DNA of 64,000 bases from Acidimicrobiales bacterium (GTDB lineage: Bacteria > Actinomycetota > Acidimicrobiia > Acidimicrobiales > Iamiaceae). The stretch spans positions 17,021 through 81,020 of the forward strand of contig JAUJNP010000011.1 in assembly GCA_030448105.1 (NCBI GenBank). The letters are read 5' to 3'. Made by a program: the position numbers and the translations under genes. Below the pieces are notes generated by a model. The model was not told the origin of the DNA and ran no database searches. It saw nothing but the letters and a program-made list of their open reading frames with translations. Each line of letters opens with the position of its first letter. Within the stretch, counting starts at the first letter, position 1. This document shows positions 50,289 to 64,000 of the stretch, one piece after another.

Positions 50289-51869
50289 ATGAGCGTGGCC
50301 GAGACCGCTGCCGCACCCGAGGTGCCCGCCCCCCGGGGCCTGGCCCGGCTCCTGCGGGAGCCGATGTGGGTGCTCGGCCTGGTGCTCCTCATGGACGAGA
50401 TCGACAAGAACATCATCCGGGGCCTCATCCACCCGCTGCAACGGCACTTCGACGTCGGCGACTTCGAGATCGGCATGCTCATCTCGGTGAGCCTGTTCCT
50501 CAACGGGATCGTCACCGTCCCCGCCGGGTACCTGGCCGACCGTTGGAACCGCACCCGGGCCATCGGCCGCACGGTGGTGGGGTGGTCGGCGCTCACCGCC
50601 GCGGGGGCGGCGTCGCTCAACTTCCCGATGCTGGTGGGCATGCGCTCGGCGCTCGGCTTCGGCCAGGCCATCTCCGAGCCGTCGGGCGCCAGCCTGATCG
50701 GCGACTACTACCCGGTGGAGAAGCGGGGCCGGGCCTTCTCCATCCAGCAGGTGATGCTGCTGGCCGGTACCGGGGTGGGCGTGCTGCTGGGCGGGCTGCT
50801 GGGCGAGCTGGTGGGCTGGCGCCTGGCCCTGGTGGTCGTGGCCCTGCCCGGGCTGGCGGTGGCCGTGCTCGTGTTCCGGCTGCGGGAACCGAAGCGGGGC
50901 ACGGCCGACCGGCTCGGCCTCGGTGGCGGCGAGATCGAGCACGACGACGCCGAGGTCCGCCTGTTCGAGGGGGGCTTCCGCCGGTTCTGCGTCGACATGG
51001 TGCTCGGCCTCCGCGACGACATGCGGACGATCATGGCCATCCGCACCATGCGCTACGCCCTCGCCGGCGTGGCCGCCCTGCTGTTCACCGTCACCGCCGT
51101 CGCCGTGTGGCTCCCGCAGTACTACATCCGCCACCTCGGCGTGGCCGACGGGCTGGGCGAGGCGTGGTTCGGGGCCCTGGCCATCCTGGGCGGCGTGCCC
51201 GGCGTGCTGGTCGGTGGCAGGGTCGCCGACCGCTACGCCAACCGCTTCCAGGGTGCCCGCCTGGCCATGCCGGCGGTGTTCCTCTTCATCGGGGCCAGCC
51301 TGTTCACCGCCTCGTACGCCCTGCGCCCCACCGACACCCACATCGAGCGGCCGCCGGCGGCGTGCGCCGACGTGGCGGCCGCCGACCGCAGCGGCGCCGA
51401 CGCCGATCCCGAGCACCGTCAGGACTGCCGCGACTTCGAGGTGGAGGCGAACGGCCGCACCACCTACCAGCCCATCGAGCGGCCCACGTTCAGCTACTCG
51501 GTGTTCGTGCCCGCCTACCTCATGCAGCTCGTGGGGATCTTCGTGGTGTCCATGGCCATCCCGGGTCTGCGGGCGGGCCTGACCGACGCCCTGCCCGCCC
51601 ACCTCCGAGGGGCCGGGTTCGGCGCGTTCAACCTCATCGCCGTCATCTTCGGGCAGGCGGCGGCGCCGTTCATCGTGTCGTTCCTCTCCAGTCGGTACGA
51701 CGACAACCTGCGCACCGCCTTCCTGCTGGTGTCACCCCTGTCGTTCCTCGGCGCGGCCGTGCTGTTCCGGGCCCGCAAGTTCCTCGACGAGGACATGCAG
51801 AAGATCATGATGGCCGTGTTGACGGCGATGCAGGCCGAACGGGAGCGGGTGCAGGAAGCCGACGGCTGA
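50289..51869 (+). CDS. MFS transporter with large extracytoplasmic loop
   Basis: 526-aa major-facilitator protein, about 12 helices. The family loop between TM2 and TM3 is recognisable (GYLADRWNRTRAIGR), also in the second half (GGRVADRYANRFQGAR). A loop of about 60 residues between TM8 and TM9 (around residues 345-405) contains two cysteines and is polar (ERPPAACADVAAADRSGADA), unusual for MFS exporters. It resembles spinster-like or drug-exporting MFS proteins. The C terminus after the last helix is basic. ATG start. Confidence 0.9.
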   Translation: MSVAETAAAPEVPAPRGLARLLREPMWVLGLVLLMDEIDKNIIRGLIHPLQRHFDVGDFEIGMLISVSLFLNGIVTVPAGYLADRWNRTRAIGRTVVGWSALTAAGAASLNFPMLVGMRSALGFGQAISEPSGASLIGDYYPVEKRGRAFSIQQVMLLAGTGVGVLLGGLLGELVGWRLALVVVALPGLAVAVLVFRLREPKRGTADRLGLGGGEIEHDDAEVRLFEGGFRRFCVDMVLGLRDDMRTIMAIRTMRYALAGVAALLFTVTAVAVWLPQYYIRHLGVADGLGEAWFGALAILGGVPGVLVGGRVADRYANRFQGARLAMPAVFLFIGASLFTASYALRPTDTHIERPPAACADVAAADRSGADADPEHRQDCRDFEVEANGRTTYQPIERPTFSYSVFVPAYLMQLVGIFVVSMAIPGLRAGLTDALPAHLRGAGFGAFNLIAVIFGQAAAPFIVSFLSSRYDDNLRTAFLLVSPLSFLGAAVLFRARKFLDEDMQKIMMAVLTAMQAERERVQEADG

Positions 51870-52078
51870 CCCTGTAAGTCGTGGTCACCGTTCTCCAGTA
51901 GATCCGGGGTCAGGGCTCGACCTCGGACCTTGAGTTCGCCTGCCGTCCCCTTCCCGATCGGTGACGATGTGGTGTGCACGAGGATGGCCGGGGTCGGAGC
52001 AGATCCATCGCCTTGGAATCGCCGCCGCCGGACAGCGGCATCGGTGCCGCGGCGCCTGGCGGTTGGCGGCCCTGGCGC
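51870..52078. other. Intergenic stretch at a compositional break
   Basis: About 210 bp between the MFS gene and the cation transporter without a credible gene. CGCG-rich sequence becomes frequent to the right of this point and is sparse to the left. It is the best candidate for the edge of an island or a chimeric join. No integrase, att site or tRNA is present here. Confidence 0.45.
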
Positions 52079-52981
52079 TCACCAGGCGATCTCGTCGCAC
52101 CCACGGTGGTCGTCGGGCTCGACCTGGAAGGTGGCGTGGTCGATGCCGTGGCGCTCTCCGAGCAACGACCGGGCCCGGTCGAGCACGGCGTGGGTCTCGG
52201 TGCCCGCACGGACCATGAGGTGGGCGGAGGCGACCTCCATCTCCGACGTGAGCGTCCAGACGTGCAGGTCGTGGACGTCGACCACCCCGTCGAGGTCGGC
52301 GAGGTCGCGGCGGACCTGGGTCACCGAGATCTTCTCGGGCGCGGCCTGGACCAGGATGCGCAGCGCCTCGCGGCCCAGCTGCCAGGTGCGCGGGAGGATG
52401 AACAGGCCGATGGCGGCGGCGACCGCGGGGTCGGCGTACGGCCAGCCGGTGAGCGCCAGCACGACGGCGGCCACGATGACGCCGACCGAGCCGAGGGTGT
52501 CGGCGACGACCTCCAGGTACGCGCCGCGGAGGTTGAGGCTCTCCCGCGAGCCCCGCCGCAGCAGCAGGAACGCGACGACGTTGGCGGCCAGCCCCACGAC
52601 GGCGACGGCCAGCATGGGCCCGGCCAGGACCTCGGGCGGGTCGCGGAAGCGCTGCACTGCCTCCCAGCACACGTAGGCGGCGACACCGACCAGCAGGACC
52701 GCGTTGGCCAGGGCGGCCAGGATCTCCAGCCGGTACAGCCCGAAGCTGCGCTGTGGGTCGGCCGCCCCGCGCGCGGCCGCGGTGATGGCGGCGAGCGCCA
52801 TCCCCAGACCCAGCACGTCGGTGAGCAGGTGCCCGGCGTCGGACAGCAGGGCCAGGGAGTTGGTCGCCAGGCCCGCGACCACCTCGATGACGAAGGCGAC
52901 CAGGATCAGCAGGAACGCCGCGGCCAATCGCCCCCGGTGCCGCCCGCCGGCGCTGACCGGCGCCCCGTGCTCGTGGCCCAA
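52079..52981 (-). CDS. Cation diffusion facilitator (CDF) transporter
   Basis: 300-aa metal-proton antiporter, six helices, exporting Zn2+, Co2+ or similar ions. Visible: LLILVAFVIEVVAGLATNSL then LLSDAGHLLTDVLG (first metal-binding pair DxxxD in TM2), GAYLEVVADTLGSVGVIVAA (TM5 D), and a cytoplasmic domain with VHDLHVWTLTSEMEVASAHL, as in zinc CDFs. The TM5 residue is Glu-Val-Val-Ala-Asp rather than His-xxx-Asp. A TTG start is the only candidate, after CACAGGTGAGGAAGCGAC. No ArsR-type regulator lies immediately beside it. Confidence 0.93.
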   Translation of the reverse strand: MGHEHGAPVSAGGRHRGRLAAAFLLILVAFVIEVVAGLATNSLALLSDAGHLLTDVLGLGMALAAITAAARGAADPQRSFGLYRLEILAALANAVLLVGVAAYVCWEAVQRFRDPPEVLAGPMLAVAVVGLAANVVAFLLLRRGSRESLNLRGAYLEVVADTLGSVGVIVAAVVLALTGWPYADPAVAAAIGLFILPRTWQLGREALRILVQAAPEKISVTQVRRDLADLDGVVDVHDLHVWTLTSEMEVASAHLMVRAGTETHAVLDRARSLLGERHGIDHATFQVEPDDHRGCDEIAW

Positions 52982-54029: not shown

Positions 54030-54461
54030 GTGCCCACTGCTGCCCACTCGCCCGACCCGGTTCCTTCTGTCCGCGGCTACGCCCTCGCCCCAGACCAGGG
54101 TGTGGATGGCCGCGGCCCGGAGGTCAAGTGCTCCGACCGGTCCACCGGCGGGAGCCTCGCGCTCTACCGCACCGTCGTCGATGGTCAAGGTCCGCCCGCG
54201 CACCGCCACACCCGCGAGGATGAGACGATCGTCGTCCTCGACGGCACCATGCAGGTCGACTGCGAGGACGACACCTGGACCGGTGGCGCGGGCACCACGT
54301 TCTTCCTACCGCGTGGACTGACCCACACGTTCCGGTCGATCGAGGGCCCGGCGTCGATCCTGTTCCTGATCACGCCCGGGCGCCTCGACGAGTTCTTCCG
54401 CCTGCGCGACAAGGCGTCGGACCCGGGCGAGATCGCCGAGCTTCTGCGCCGCTTCTTCTGA
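54030..54461 (+). CDS. Cupin-domain protein
   Basis: 143 aa, single-domain cupin. Motif 1 has the two His and Glu ligands in PAHRHTREDETIVVLDG; motif 2 is LPRGLTHTFRSIEGPASIL. The ligands could hold iron, manganese or nickel. No catalytic partner is nearby and it ends 28 bp before the selenocysteine tRNA on the other strand. GTG 54030 follows an AAGGA ribosome-binding site. Possible roles: small dioxygenase, sugar epimerase-like or storage-type protein. Confidence 0.85.
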   Translation: MPTAAHSPDPVPSVRGYALAPDQGVDGRGPEVKCSDRSTGGSLALYRTVVDGQGPPAHRHTREDETIVVLDGTMQVDCEDDTWTGGAGTTFFLPRGLTHTFRSIEGPASILFLITPGRLDEFFRLRDKASDPGEIAELLRRFF

Positions 54462-54488: not shown

Positions 54489-54584
54489 TGGCGGAGGTGG
54501 ACGGGAATCGAACCCGCCAGCGCGACCGGGTCGCGCTCGTCGGTTTTGAAGACCGCGGGGCCCACCAGGCGCCCTCACACCTCC
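54489..54584 (-). tRNA. selC: tRNA-Sec (UCA anticodon)
   Basis: 96 nt. The 5' arm GGAGGTGT pairs with CCACCTCC (one mismatch at the eighth pair), followed by discriminator G and an encoded CCA. The anticodon loop is CTTCAAA with anticodon TCA between CGGT/ACCG arms. An extra-long variable arm (AGCGCGAC, short loop, GTCGCGCT) and T arm GCGGG-TTCGATT-CCCGT complete the shape. Selenocysteine tRNAs alone combine a UCA anticodon, an 8-bp acceptor and this variable arm. No selA, selB or selD gene lies in the window. Confidence 0.93.
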
Positions 54585-54594
54585 GCGGGGGAGG

Positions 54595-56967
54595 CTAGCC
54601 GGTGGCGGCGGGGTGGCGAGGCGTGGTCTGGAGGTAGGCGGTGGCCCGGTCGGGGGGCATGGCGGGGCCGAGGTGGTTGCCCTGCGCCAGCGGCCACGCG
54701 TGGTGGCGGAGGGCGGCGAGCTGCTCGGGGCGCTCGACGCCCTCGGCCACGACGCGCAGCTCCAGGGACGCGGCGAAGCCCAGCAGCGCCTGGGCGAACG
54801 CGCGCCCCCCCGGGCTGCCGGTCAGGTCGTCGACCCAGGACCGGTCCATCTTCACCGTGTCGATCGGCAGCCGGCGCAGCAGCTCCAGCGACGACCCCGA
54901 CCCGAAGCGCTCGAGGGCCACGCGCACGCCCAGGTCGTGCAGGTCGACCAGCCGGGCGCGGGCCGCCTCGCCGTCGCCGGCCAGGGCCGCCTGGTCGACC
55001 TCCAGCTCCAGCGCGGTCGGCGGCAGCCCCGCGGCGGACAGGATGTCCTCGACGTCCTCGGCCAGCCGGTCGTCGCGCAGCTGCACCGGCGACAGGTTCA
55101 CCCCGACGGTCCGCGGCGCGCCCGGGCCCAGGTCGTCGGTCCAGCGGCGCAGCTGCCGGCACGCCTGCTCCAGCACCACCCGCCCCAGCGGCAGGATCTG
55201 GCCCGACCGCTCCGCCGCGGGCAGGAACGCGCCCGGCCGGGTCGCCCGCCCCGCGGTCCGGTGCCAGCGCACCAGCGCCTCGACCGCGACGGTGCGCCCG
55301 CTGCGCAGGTCCACGATCGGCTGGTAGTGGGCGCGGAACCCGCCCGCGGCCAGGCCGTCCTGGAGCGCGGCCTCCAGCTCCCGCCGCCGGGCGAGCGTGG
55401 AGCGCATGCGCGGCTCGTAGACCGCGAAGCGCCCCTTGCCCCGGTGCTTGGCCACGTACATGGCGGTGTCGGCGTCGCGCAGGAGCGCGTCGACGTCCAG
55501 CGGGTCCTCCCAGACCGCGACCCCGACGCTGCCGGTCACGACCAGGGTGCGGCCCTCGAGCTCCACGGGCTCGGCCAGGGCGTCGAGCACCCGGCAGGCG
55601 GCCCGCCGCGCGTCGTCGGTCGTGTCCACGCCGTCCAGGAGCACGGCGAACTCGTCCCCGCCCAGGCGCGCCACGGTGTCGGCGGGGCGGACCGACGCGC
55701 GCAGCCGGTCGGCCACGACCACGAGCAGCTGGTCGCCGGCCGCGTGGCCGAGGGCGTCGTTCACCGCCTTGAAGCCGTCCAGGTCGACCAGCAGCACGGC
55801 CGCGCGGCGCGACTCGCGGCGCGAGCGCGCGATCGCCTGGCCGGCGCGCTCGCGCAGCAGGGCGCGGTTGGCCAGGCCCGTGAGCGCGTCGCGCAGCGCC
55901 TGGCGCTGCAGGTCCTGGGTGAGCGCGTGGCTGCACAGCGCCAGCGAGACGCTGGAGGTCAGGGTCTGCAGCGCGTCGGCGACCCCGGGCCGCAGCGGCG
56001 GGGCGACCTCGACGACCAGTGCCCCCCACGGCTGGTCGCCCACGGACAGCGGCAGCTGCACGACCCCCGGCGCGTCGGCGTGCAGGTGGGGCAGCCCGGC
56101 CAGCCCCGGGCAGGCGTCGGCCCTGGCCTGCACGATCCGGCCCGCGGCCAGCCCCTCGCCCAGGGGGGCCGGCAGGTCGGCGACGGCCACGGCGGCGCCA
56201 GGCGGCCCCGGCTCCGCGGCGACGGCCCGCAGCACCCCGTCCTCCAGGGCCATGATCTGGGCCCGCGCGGCGGGGCGGCCGACCAGGTCGAGGGCGGCGA
56301 CGACGGCGAGCTGGTGCACGTGGTCGCCCCCCGGCGCGGCCGCCAGCCCGGTCGCCGCCCGCCACAGCGCCTGCTCGCGGGCGGTCAGCAGCTCCTGGCG
56401 CACCATGGTCGAGGCGACCGCGCGCATCAGCCCGGTCCAGAGGATGAACGACAGCAGCTGCCACAGGGCCTGCTCGGTGCTGGCGCTGATCGGCTCCAGA
56501 CCCAGGTCGAAGGCGACGGCCTCGGCCCCCTGGTCCACCGCCCACCAGACCACGGCGCGGATCAGCGCGCCGCGTGAGGACCCGTAGAGGGAGCGCACGA
56601 AGATGCCGGCGCTCACGGGCGCGGCGGCGGCGCTGACCTCGCCGCCGAGCAGCGCGAGGGTGACGAGGAACGCGATCTCGACGAGCTCGCCCCAGACGGG
56701 GAACCCGCCCCGGTGGTAGCCCCAGCGCCACCACAGCCACCAGACCACGGCCACGCCCGGGACGGCGACGCGGGCCAGCGGCGGGAGCCGGCTGTCCAGG
56801 AGGGCCAGCACGACGGTGATCACCGTGGTGACGAGGGCCAGGACGAGCAGGAGGCGGCGGAGCCCGGCAAGCAGCCCGTGACGCCCGCGGAACAGCGCCG
56901 CGCCCGCGGCCGCCCCTGCTCCCAGCGACCCGCCCGCGAGGGGGGCCACGCCCATCGCCGCTCCCAT
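54595..56967 (-). CDS. GGDEF-EAL protein, EAL domain probably inactive
   Basis: 790-aa membrane protein turning over cyclic di-GMP. The N terminus has several helices (LLLVLALVTTVITVVLALLD, GVAVVWWLWWRWGYHRGGFP, ELVEIAFLVTLALLGGEVSA), then a GAF-like middle. The GGDEF domain is intact, with LVDLDGFKAVNDALGH and RLGGDEFAVLLDGVD. The EAL domain has VEALVRWHR and KMDRSWVDDL, but the key DDFGTG is changed to ERFGSG and the ExxE/TES motif is LELEVDQ, so phosphodiesterase activity is unlikely. It should mainly make c-di-GMP, with the EAL domain as a receptor or regulatory part. Confidence 0.9.
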   Translation of the reverse strand: MGAAMGVAPLAGGSLGAGAAAGAALFRGRHGLLAGLRRLLLVLALVTTVITVVLALLDSRLPPLARVAVPGVAVVWWLWWRWGYHRGGFPVWGELVEIAFLVTLALLGGEVSAAAAPVSAGIFVRSLYGSSRGALIRAVVWWAVDQGAEAVAFDLGLEPISASTEQALWQLLSFILWTGLMRAVASTMVRQELLTAREQALWRAATGLAAAPGGDHVHQLAVVAALDLVGRPAARAQIMALEDGVLRAVAAEPGPPGAAVAVADLPAPLGEGLAAGRIVQARADACPGLAGLPHLHADAPGVVQLPLSVGDQPWGALVVEVAPPLRPGVADALQTLTSSVSLALCSHALTQDLQRQALRDALTGLANRALLRERAGQAIARSRRESRRAAVLLVDLDGFKAVNDALGHAAGDQLLVVVADRLRASVRPADTVARLGGDEFAVLLDGVDTTDDARRAACRVLDALAEPVELEGRTLVVTGSVGVAVWEDPLDVDALLRDADTAMYVAKHRGKGRFAVYEPRMRSTLARRRELEAALQDGLAAGGFRAHYQPIVDLRSGRTVAVEALVRWHRTAGRATRPGAFLPAAERSGQILPLGRVVLEQACRQLRRWTDDLGPGAPRTVGVNLSPVQLRDDRLAEDVEDILSAAGLPPTALELEVDQAALAGDGEAARARLVDLHDLGVRVALERFGSGSSLELLRRLPIDTVKMDRSWVDDLTGSPGGRAFAQALLGFAASLELRVVAEGVERPEQLAALRHHAWPLAQGNHLGPAMPPDRATAYLQTTPRHPAATG

Positions 56968-57598: not shown

Positions 57599-58514
57599 AT
57601 GTCTGGCCTGCTGTCGTGGACCGAGCACGCCCCCGTGCTGCACCGGCCCGTCCTGCTCGTCGCGCTCGACGGCTTCGTCGACGCCGGCGCCGCGGCGACC
57701 ACCGCCTCGATGTTCCTGCGCCACCGCTGGCTGGCCGAGCCGCTGGCCACCTTCGACCGCGACGCGTTCCTGGACTACCGGGCGCGCCGTCCCACGGTCG
57801 TCATCGACAACGGCGAGGTCCGCCGGGTCGACTGGCCGTCGCTGGAGCTGCTGGCCGCCAAGGTCGGCGGCCCCCACGACGTCGTCCTGCTGCTCGGCGC
57901 CGAGCCGGACATGCGCTGGCAGGCCTTCGCCCGCGAGGTGCGCGACGCGTGCCGCCACCTGGGCGTGGAGGCCGCGGCGACCTTCGGCGCCTACCCGGCG
58001 GCCGTCCCCCACACGCGGCCCATCCGGCTGGTGCACGCGAGCAGCGCGGTGCCCGGCGGCCTGCAGGTCGACGCCCTGCCCATCCCCGGCTACACCGGGC
58101 CGGTCGGCGCGGCGACGGCCGTCCAGGACGCGCTCGCCGAGGACGGGATCCCCGTCGCCGGGCTCTGGGCGGAGGTGCCCCACTACATCGCGGCGTCGCC
58201 GGATCCCCGTCGCCGGGCTCTGGGCGGAGGTGCCCCACTACATCGCGGCGTCGCCGAACCCGGCGGCGGCCCTCGCCCTGGTGCGCGCGTTCGGCGGCGC
58301 CGTCGGGGTCGACGTCGACACCACCGAGCTGGAGGCCGCGGCCAAGCTCCACCGCGAGCAGGTCGACGAGGCCGTCGCCGAGCACGAGGACGCCGCCGCG
58401 ATGATCACCGCCTTCGAGCAGCACCTCGACGCGGGCGGCGACGACGAGGCCCTGCCCTCCGGCGACGACCTCGCCGCCGAGATCGAGCGCTTCCTCCGCA
58501 CCCAGAACGACTGA
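57599..58514 (+). CDS. PAC2-family protein broken by a 55-bp tandem duplication
   Basis: Proteasome-assembly-chaperone-like protein of the actinobacterial PAC2 family, about 286 aa when repaired. N-terminal part MSGLLSWTEHAPVLHRPVLL, then SMFLRHRWLAEPLATFDRDA and LLLGAEPDMRWQAFAREV, the PAC2 core. C-terminal part PNPAAALALVRAFGGAVGVD, then EIERFLRTQND. The frame switches at the exact 55-bp duplication (58146-58255) that encodes AGLWAEVPHYIAAS twice in different frames. Removing one copy restores one continuous protein. In many actinobacteria PAC2 lies near proteasome genes, none here. Confidence 0.8.
58146..58255. repeat. Exact 55-bp tandem duplication inside the PAC2 gene
   Basis: Two identical 55-bp units start GGATCCCCGTCGCCGGGCTC at 58146 and 58201; the one base after each also matches (G). 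Not a multiple of three, so it shifts the frame. Fifty-five is a common assembler k-mer length and such an exact copy often marks an untrimmed contig join. Confidence 0.9.
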
Positions 58515-63513: not shown

Positions 63514-63590
63514 CGCGTGCTCCCGTGCTGCAGCCGGGGCGGGGGTCGGCAGACTGTGCTGGCGAGACCCCTCCGCTCCCCGAGGTGCAC

Positions 63591-64000
63591 GTGACAAGCC
63601 AGACCGCCATCGTCAGGGACGCCACCGAGGCCAGCTTCGCGGCCGACGTCGTCGAGGCCAGCCGCACCCGACCCGTCGTGGTCGACTTCTGGGCGGCGTG
63701 GTGCGGTCCCTGCCACCAGCTGTCGCCGCTGCTGGAGGCCGCGGCGCAGCGCCACGCCGGAGAGGTCGACCTGGTCAAGGTCGACGTCGACCAGGCGCCC
63801 AACCTGTCCCGGGCCTTCCGCGTGCAGGGCATCCCGGCGGTCAAGGCCTTCCGCGACGGGCGGGTCGTGGCGGAGTTCGTGGGCGCCCAGCCGGCCGCGG
63901 TCGTCGACCGGCTGTTCGCGTCCCTCGCCCCGTCCCCGGCGGACCGGCTGGCCGAGGCCGCGGTCGCGGCGGCGTCCGACGAGGACCGCGAGCGGGGCTT
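63591..64000 (+). CDS. Thioredoxin-domain protein (YbbN/CnoX-like), 3' end beyond the window
   Basis: Starts GTG 63591 after CCCGAGG. The thioredoxin fold VVVDFWAAWCGPCHQLSPLL has an intact WCGPC active site, VKVDVDQAPNLSRAFRVQGI and the cis-Pro IPAVKAFRDGRVVAEF. After residue 105 the chain continues as a helix-rich segment (SPADRLAEAAVAAASDEDRE), as in YbbN/CnoX proteins that add TPR repeats to a thioredoxin domain. Cut by the window edge at about codon 136. Probably a holdase-redoxin. Confidence 0.87.
   Translation, partial: MTSQTAIVRDATEASFAADVVEASRTRPVVVDFWAAWCGPCHQLSPLLEAAAQRHAGEVDLVKVDVDQAPNLSRAFRVQGIPAVKAFRDGRVVAEFVGAQPAAVVDRLFASLAPSPADRLAEAAVAAASDEDRERG

Follow-up and report, generated by a model that had tools for sequence, protein, structure and literature searches.

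We analyzed a 64-kb stretch (the window) of a metagenome-assembled genome of 3.29 Mb and 49 contigs (G000). The window corresponds to positions 17021-81020 of contig C31, which ends at 121.7 kb. The only tRNA gene that ARAGORN calls in the window is a tRNA-Sec with anticodon TCA (Table 1). The Rfam model of the bacterial tRNA-Sec, RF01852, matches positions 54493-54584 over its full length (1-91), scoring 71 bits (E = 1.6e-12) where the gathering score is 47. The earlier note on this DNA had called a tRNA-Sec with UCA anticodon here and had named a covariance-model score below threshold as one result that would speak against it. ARAGORN makes the same call, and the score lies above the threshold.

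Table 1. Features around the tRNA-Sec gene, in window coordinates.
Feature	Position	Strand	Basis
MFS transporter gene, last clearly main-organism gene	50289..51872	+	76% identity to same-family genome G013
Probable junction between main-organism arm (left) and Egibacteraceae-like arm (right)	51873..52480	.	Markov log-odds minimum at 52248; tetranucleotide break
Cation diffusion facilitator gene, at or near the junction	52079..52981	-	TIGR01297, 269 bits
Cupin-domain gene adjoining the tRNA 3' end	54102..54461	+	Pfam PF07883; coding model
tRNA-Sec gene (selC)	54489..54584	-	ARAGORN; Rfam RF01852, 71 bits; anticodon TCA at 54549-54547; CCA encoded
GGDEF-EAL protein gene, ending 10 bp before the tRNA	54595..56955	-	Pfam PF00990, PF00563
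Small membrane-protein gene, neighbor also in L072	57156..57533	+	tblastx synteny
PAC2-family gene, adjoining or near tRNA-Sec also in L070 (YX1bin3) and L072	57599..58505	+	Pfam PF09754; synteny
YbbN-like thioredoxin gene, Egibacteraceae-type, cut by the window end	63585..64000	+	60-64% identity to G314/G315

The gene resembles its family. The long variable arm and encoded CCA described earlier are both seen in the sequence, together with a discriminator G, an intact anticodon loop and what appears to be an extended acceptor/T arm. The 8-bp acceptor stem of the earlier description is a slight simplification. Where a 13-bp acceptor plus T arm (8/5) is expected, the Rfam alignment places seven standard acceptor pairs, then a U8.C mismatch. 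Nothing else in the comparison with RF01852 is notable. The U8/C arrangement is common to nearly all tRNA-Secs of the order and is thus no sign of decay. The D and anticodon stems contain a few mismatches, which would favor a tRNA-like relic or a false positive. The chance of either is practically nil given the score, the full-length match, the intact anticodon loop, the CCA end and the conserved synteny described below. The window tRNA-Sec is a genuine gene of the normal bacterial type.

Composition analysis indicated that C31 consists of two different halves. Over the first 70 kb of the contig, tetranucleotide frequencies correlate with those of the remaining genome at about 0.99; from there to 121.7 kb, the correlation is 0.91-0.94. 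In the window, the break falls at about 51.9-52.5 kb. The Markov log-odds minimum lies between the end of the MFS gene and the tRNA, near or within the cation-efflux gene. The foreign signature continues for about 50 kb, to the contig end, and does not return. The compositionally distinct right arm proposed in the earlier note is therefore a real switch, as both scans show. In the left arm, a tmRNA gene (L019:14683-15071) encodes the tag peptide ADGDFALAA.

The two arms also differ in their relatives. The left-arm MFS protein, close to its homolog in a genome of the same family (Table 1), is only about 24-35% identical to those in genomes with a tRNA-Sec of the window type. In the right arm, the YbbN-like thioredoxin is closest to two Egibacteraceae genomes, YX1bin3 (G314) and 0813_bin20 (G315), and at most 52% identical to order mates; another homolog of it is found on contig C18 of the assembly. 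Egibacteraceae is a member of the class Nitriliruptoria. Over about 27 kb, C31 74.6-101.3 kb is collinear with G314:C5 35.2-10.5 kb; the 22 matching blocks keep their order and are all inverted. The YX1bin3 tRNA-Sec (C5:35348-35441) is found at the same place, beside the PAC2 gene that is also a near neighbor in the window. The GGDEF-EAL gene, which lies between the window tRNA and the next syntenic genes, sets the window apart from YX1bin3 and from the Nitriliruptorales genome Dino_bin30. The right-arm dGTPase (C31:94487) is equivocal. Its best match is in the order mate G041 (67%), not in Egibacteraceae; the G314 copy at the syntenic place appears frameshifted and is 55% identical over part. 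The PAC2-family gene shows a frame change near 58205 relative to its L072 homolog, which would fit indel errors in this arm too.

A second, different tRNA-Sec is found in the assembly, at C19:106757-106848. Its anticodon arm, CCGCCTTCAAAGCGG, is common to nearly all order mates, and it represents their single-copy type. The window copy has CGGTCTTCAAAACCG. This pattern matches in only 2 of the 298 genomes of the order that were searched, the bin genome and G041. Among named genomes, those with window-type tRNA-Secs are Egibacteraceae, Nitriliruptorales, Tsukamurella, Kocuria, an Acidimicrobiia MAG and an unplaced Actinomycetota MAG. Position by position and without gaps, the window gene is identical to that of Dino_bin30 (L067) at 87 of 96 positions and to the C19 gene at 64 of 96. 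With the YX1bin3 gene (L070/G314), with which it has its neighborhood in common, 76 of 94 positions are identical. Some family members have matches of about 71 nt near 50 bits, possibly to other tRNAs.

Two well-scoring tRNA-Secs in one assembly could represent a native gene and a divergent paralog of it, produced by a duplication specific to the genus or lineage. Several tRNA-Secs per genome are reported in some bacteria (PMC5330540). We consider this extremely unlikely here. No order mate searched contains two tRNA-Secs, the window copy is nearer to Nitriliruptorales than to the C19 copy, and its neighborhood follows Egibacteraceae. A pair of tRNA-Secs common to the family was rejected as well: besides the bin genome, two hits are found only in G041, and the second, weak one is a tRNA-Ser.

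The tRNA-Sec is not the only gene present twice. The right arm encodes topA (C31:95757-98114), followed at C31:98214-101528 by a reading frame that encodes domains of thymidylate kinase and of DNA polymerase III delta'. On C19, the order is also topA (122004-124619), tmk, holB (to 126328), and this set is found some 15 kb away from the native tRNA-Sec. Where the two sets align, they are about 40-68% identical; the right-arm copies are 53-88% identical to those of Egibacteraceae. The right-arm frame (L156:13214-16528) is open over 1104 amino acids and includes an MFS domain in addition to the two others. It could be a true fusion, or indel errors could have produced it. In both regions, C31:71.5-101 kb and C19:106.8-126 kb, a collinear cluster with topA-tmk-holB at its end is found downstream of a tRNA-Sec. 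From their gene order, both tRNA-Secs appear to lie upstream of one conserved neighborhood in two lineages, resembling orthologous regions of two species. This suggests an old conserved location of selC near topA-tmk-holB in two distant actinobacterial lineages.

These observations are best explained by a chimeric contig. A chimera accounts at once for the break in signature, the conflict between lineages, the additional tRNA-Sec and the duplicated core genes. The change of signature is abrupt by both tetranucleotide and Markov log-odds measures. The left-arm MFS gene points to one lineage, and the right-arm thioredoxin and synteny to another. Four genes expected in single copy, topA, tmk, holB and tRNA-Sec, are duplicated in the bin. 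Against a chimera are the dGTPase match in G041 and the bin's stated contamination of only 3.74%. Among the known errors of MAGs is misassembly into chimeric contigs, said to occur less often than mis-binning (PMC8201837). C31 resembles the chimeric contigs described with GUNC (PMC8201837) in having two lineages on one contig, duplicated single-copy genes and foreign distant orthologs. We infer that the join in C31 is an assembly error. The window feature is very probably an ordinary tRNA-Sec from an Egibacteraceae-like bacterium on a chimeric metagenome contig.

Horizontal transfer would place both halves in one organism. The main organism would have taken up an Egibacteraceae-like block of at least 50 kb with a second tRNA-Sec, and would keep both sets of genes. 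The two halves do lie on one contig without a gap, and the recipient order uses selenocysteine. However, the cargo consists of core genes, topA, tmk and holB, which follow the gene order of the donor chromosome and duplicate native copies. Tests of proteins in the arm and near the junction revealed no family of mobility genes. Genomic islands contain accessory cargo and return to the host signature; here the cargo is core and the signature stays foreign up to the end of the contig. We consider such a transfer very unlikely, and transfer of a whole block is much less likely than a chimera. If the join were real, an actinobacterium would have acquired 50 kb or more of chromosome from another class, and would have a divergent second tRNA-Sec and a redundant topA-tmk-holB beside its native set; this is highly improbable.

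The tRNA-Sec is charged with serine and converted to Sec-tRNA by SelA using the selenophosphate made by SelD, and SelB delivers it to UGA. Profile searches found none of selA, selB and selD on C31, and hence none in the window. SelB (247 bits) and SelA (401 bits) are encoded on C41 and SelD (332 bits) on C29, all above curated cut-offs. In-frame TGA codons flanked by coding sequence were only gene-gene junctions on C31, on C19 and in the sampled stretches. The earlier note was thus correct that selA, selB, selD and an obvious UGA-containing selenoprotein are absent from the window. Its suggestion of an orphan gene did not hold, and the lack of SelA, SelB and SelD that it thought might overturn its reading was not observed. 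Because the three proteins are encoded on other contigs, the window tRNA is not an orphan in the assembly. The main organism has all of them and its own tRNA-Sec, and relatives of the right-arm organism have SelA. The absence of sel genes near the window tRNA is explained by an unlinked tRNA gene and by the contig junction about 2-2.5 kb away.

The selAB region is present twice in the assembly. The C19 region is 98% identical to the C41 copy, with 36 mostly 1-2 nt gaps, of which 31 are bases missing in C19. As a result, the selA and selB reading frames on C19 (68.8-70.8 kb) are broken. The gaps would most simply be residual sequencing error. A pseudogene on C19 was judged less likely because the C41 copy is intact and the gaps are mostly 1-2 nt, nearly all of them missing bases. 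In addition, C41 1-4711 is a 98% copy of C19:66190-70853 joined to DNA unmatched elsewhere on C19 (L016, G000:C41:1-7206). C41 may be a second chimeric contig, or it may represent a strain variant.

The pathway appears to exist on both sides of the junction. In bacteria, selB and selC are markers of the Sec-decoding trait (PMC1273633). YX1bin3 encodes SelA (C5:87538-88632) on the same contig as its tRNA-Sec. That contig also encodes a formate dehydrogenase with an in-frame TGA (C5:122.4-123.1 kb) in the context NQARI-U-HSSTVPGLG. The motif recurs in the order mate G035, and a similar match with a single TGA was obtained in G003. Formate dehydrogenase genes in which the Sec site is an in-frame TGA were seen in G314 (C5), G035, G310, G028 and G311. 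A TIGR01591 search found no UGA-containing FdhA in G000, and the formate dehydrogenase-like protein on C19 has Cys at the Sec site. The closest relatives found of the right-arm organism, in the Nitriliruptoria, have SelA, and one of them has a UGA-containing FdhA. Judging from these relatives, the right-arm organism most probably reads the UGA of FdhA as selenocysteine, and we infer that it would itself have the rest of the pathway. The earlier claim that the host reads some UGA codons as selenocysteine is very probably right. Its question of which genome carries the pathway, raised by the distinct right arm, was apt; both the main organism and the right-arm relatives have sel genes.

In the chimera that we favor, C31 from 1 to about 69.0 kb (the window up to about 52 kb) would belong to the bin's main organism. 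The rest, from about 69.0 to 121.7 kb, would come from an uncultured relative of Egibacteraceae in the class Nitriliruptoria. The window selC would occupy its conserved chromosomal place in that bacterium, and the assembly would have joined this arm to the main genome. The tRNA would serve UGA codons, most probably in formate dehydrogenase.

The finding leaves the knowledge of selenocysteine unchanged, and the window tRNA is an ordinary further member of a known family. Genes in the right arm of the window and on C31 beyond about 69 kb should not be attributed to the main organism of the bin. Likewise, the pair of divergent tRNA-Secs in the bin genome should not be taken as biology. A modest positive result is that the tRNA-Sec seems to hold its place near topA-tmk-holB in two distant actinobacterial lineages.
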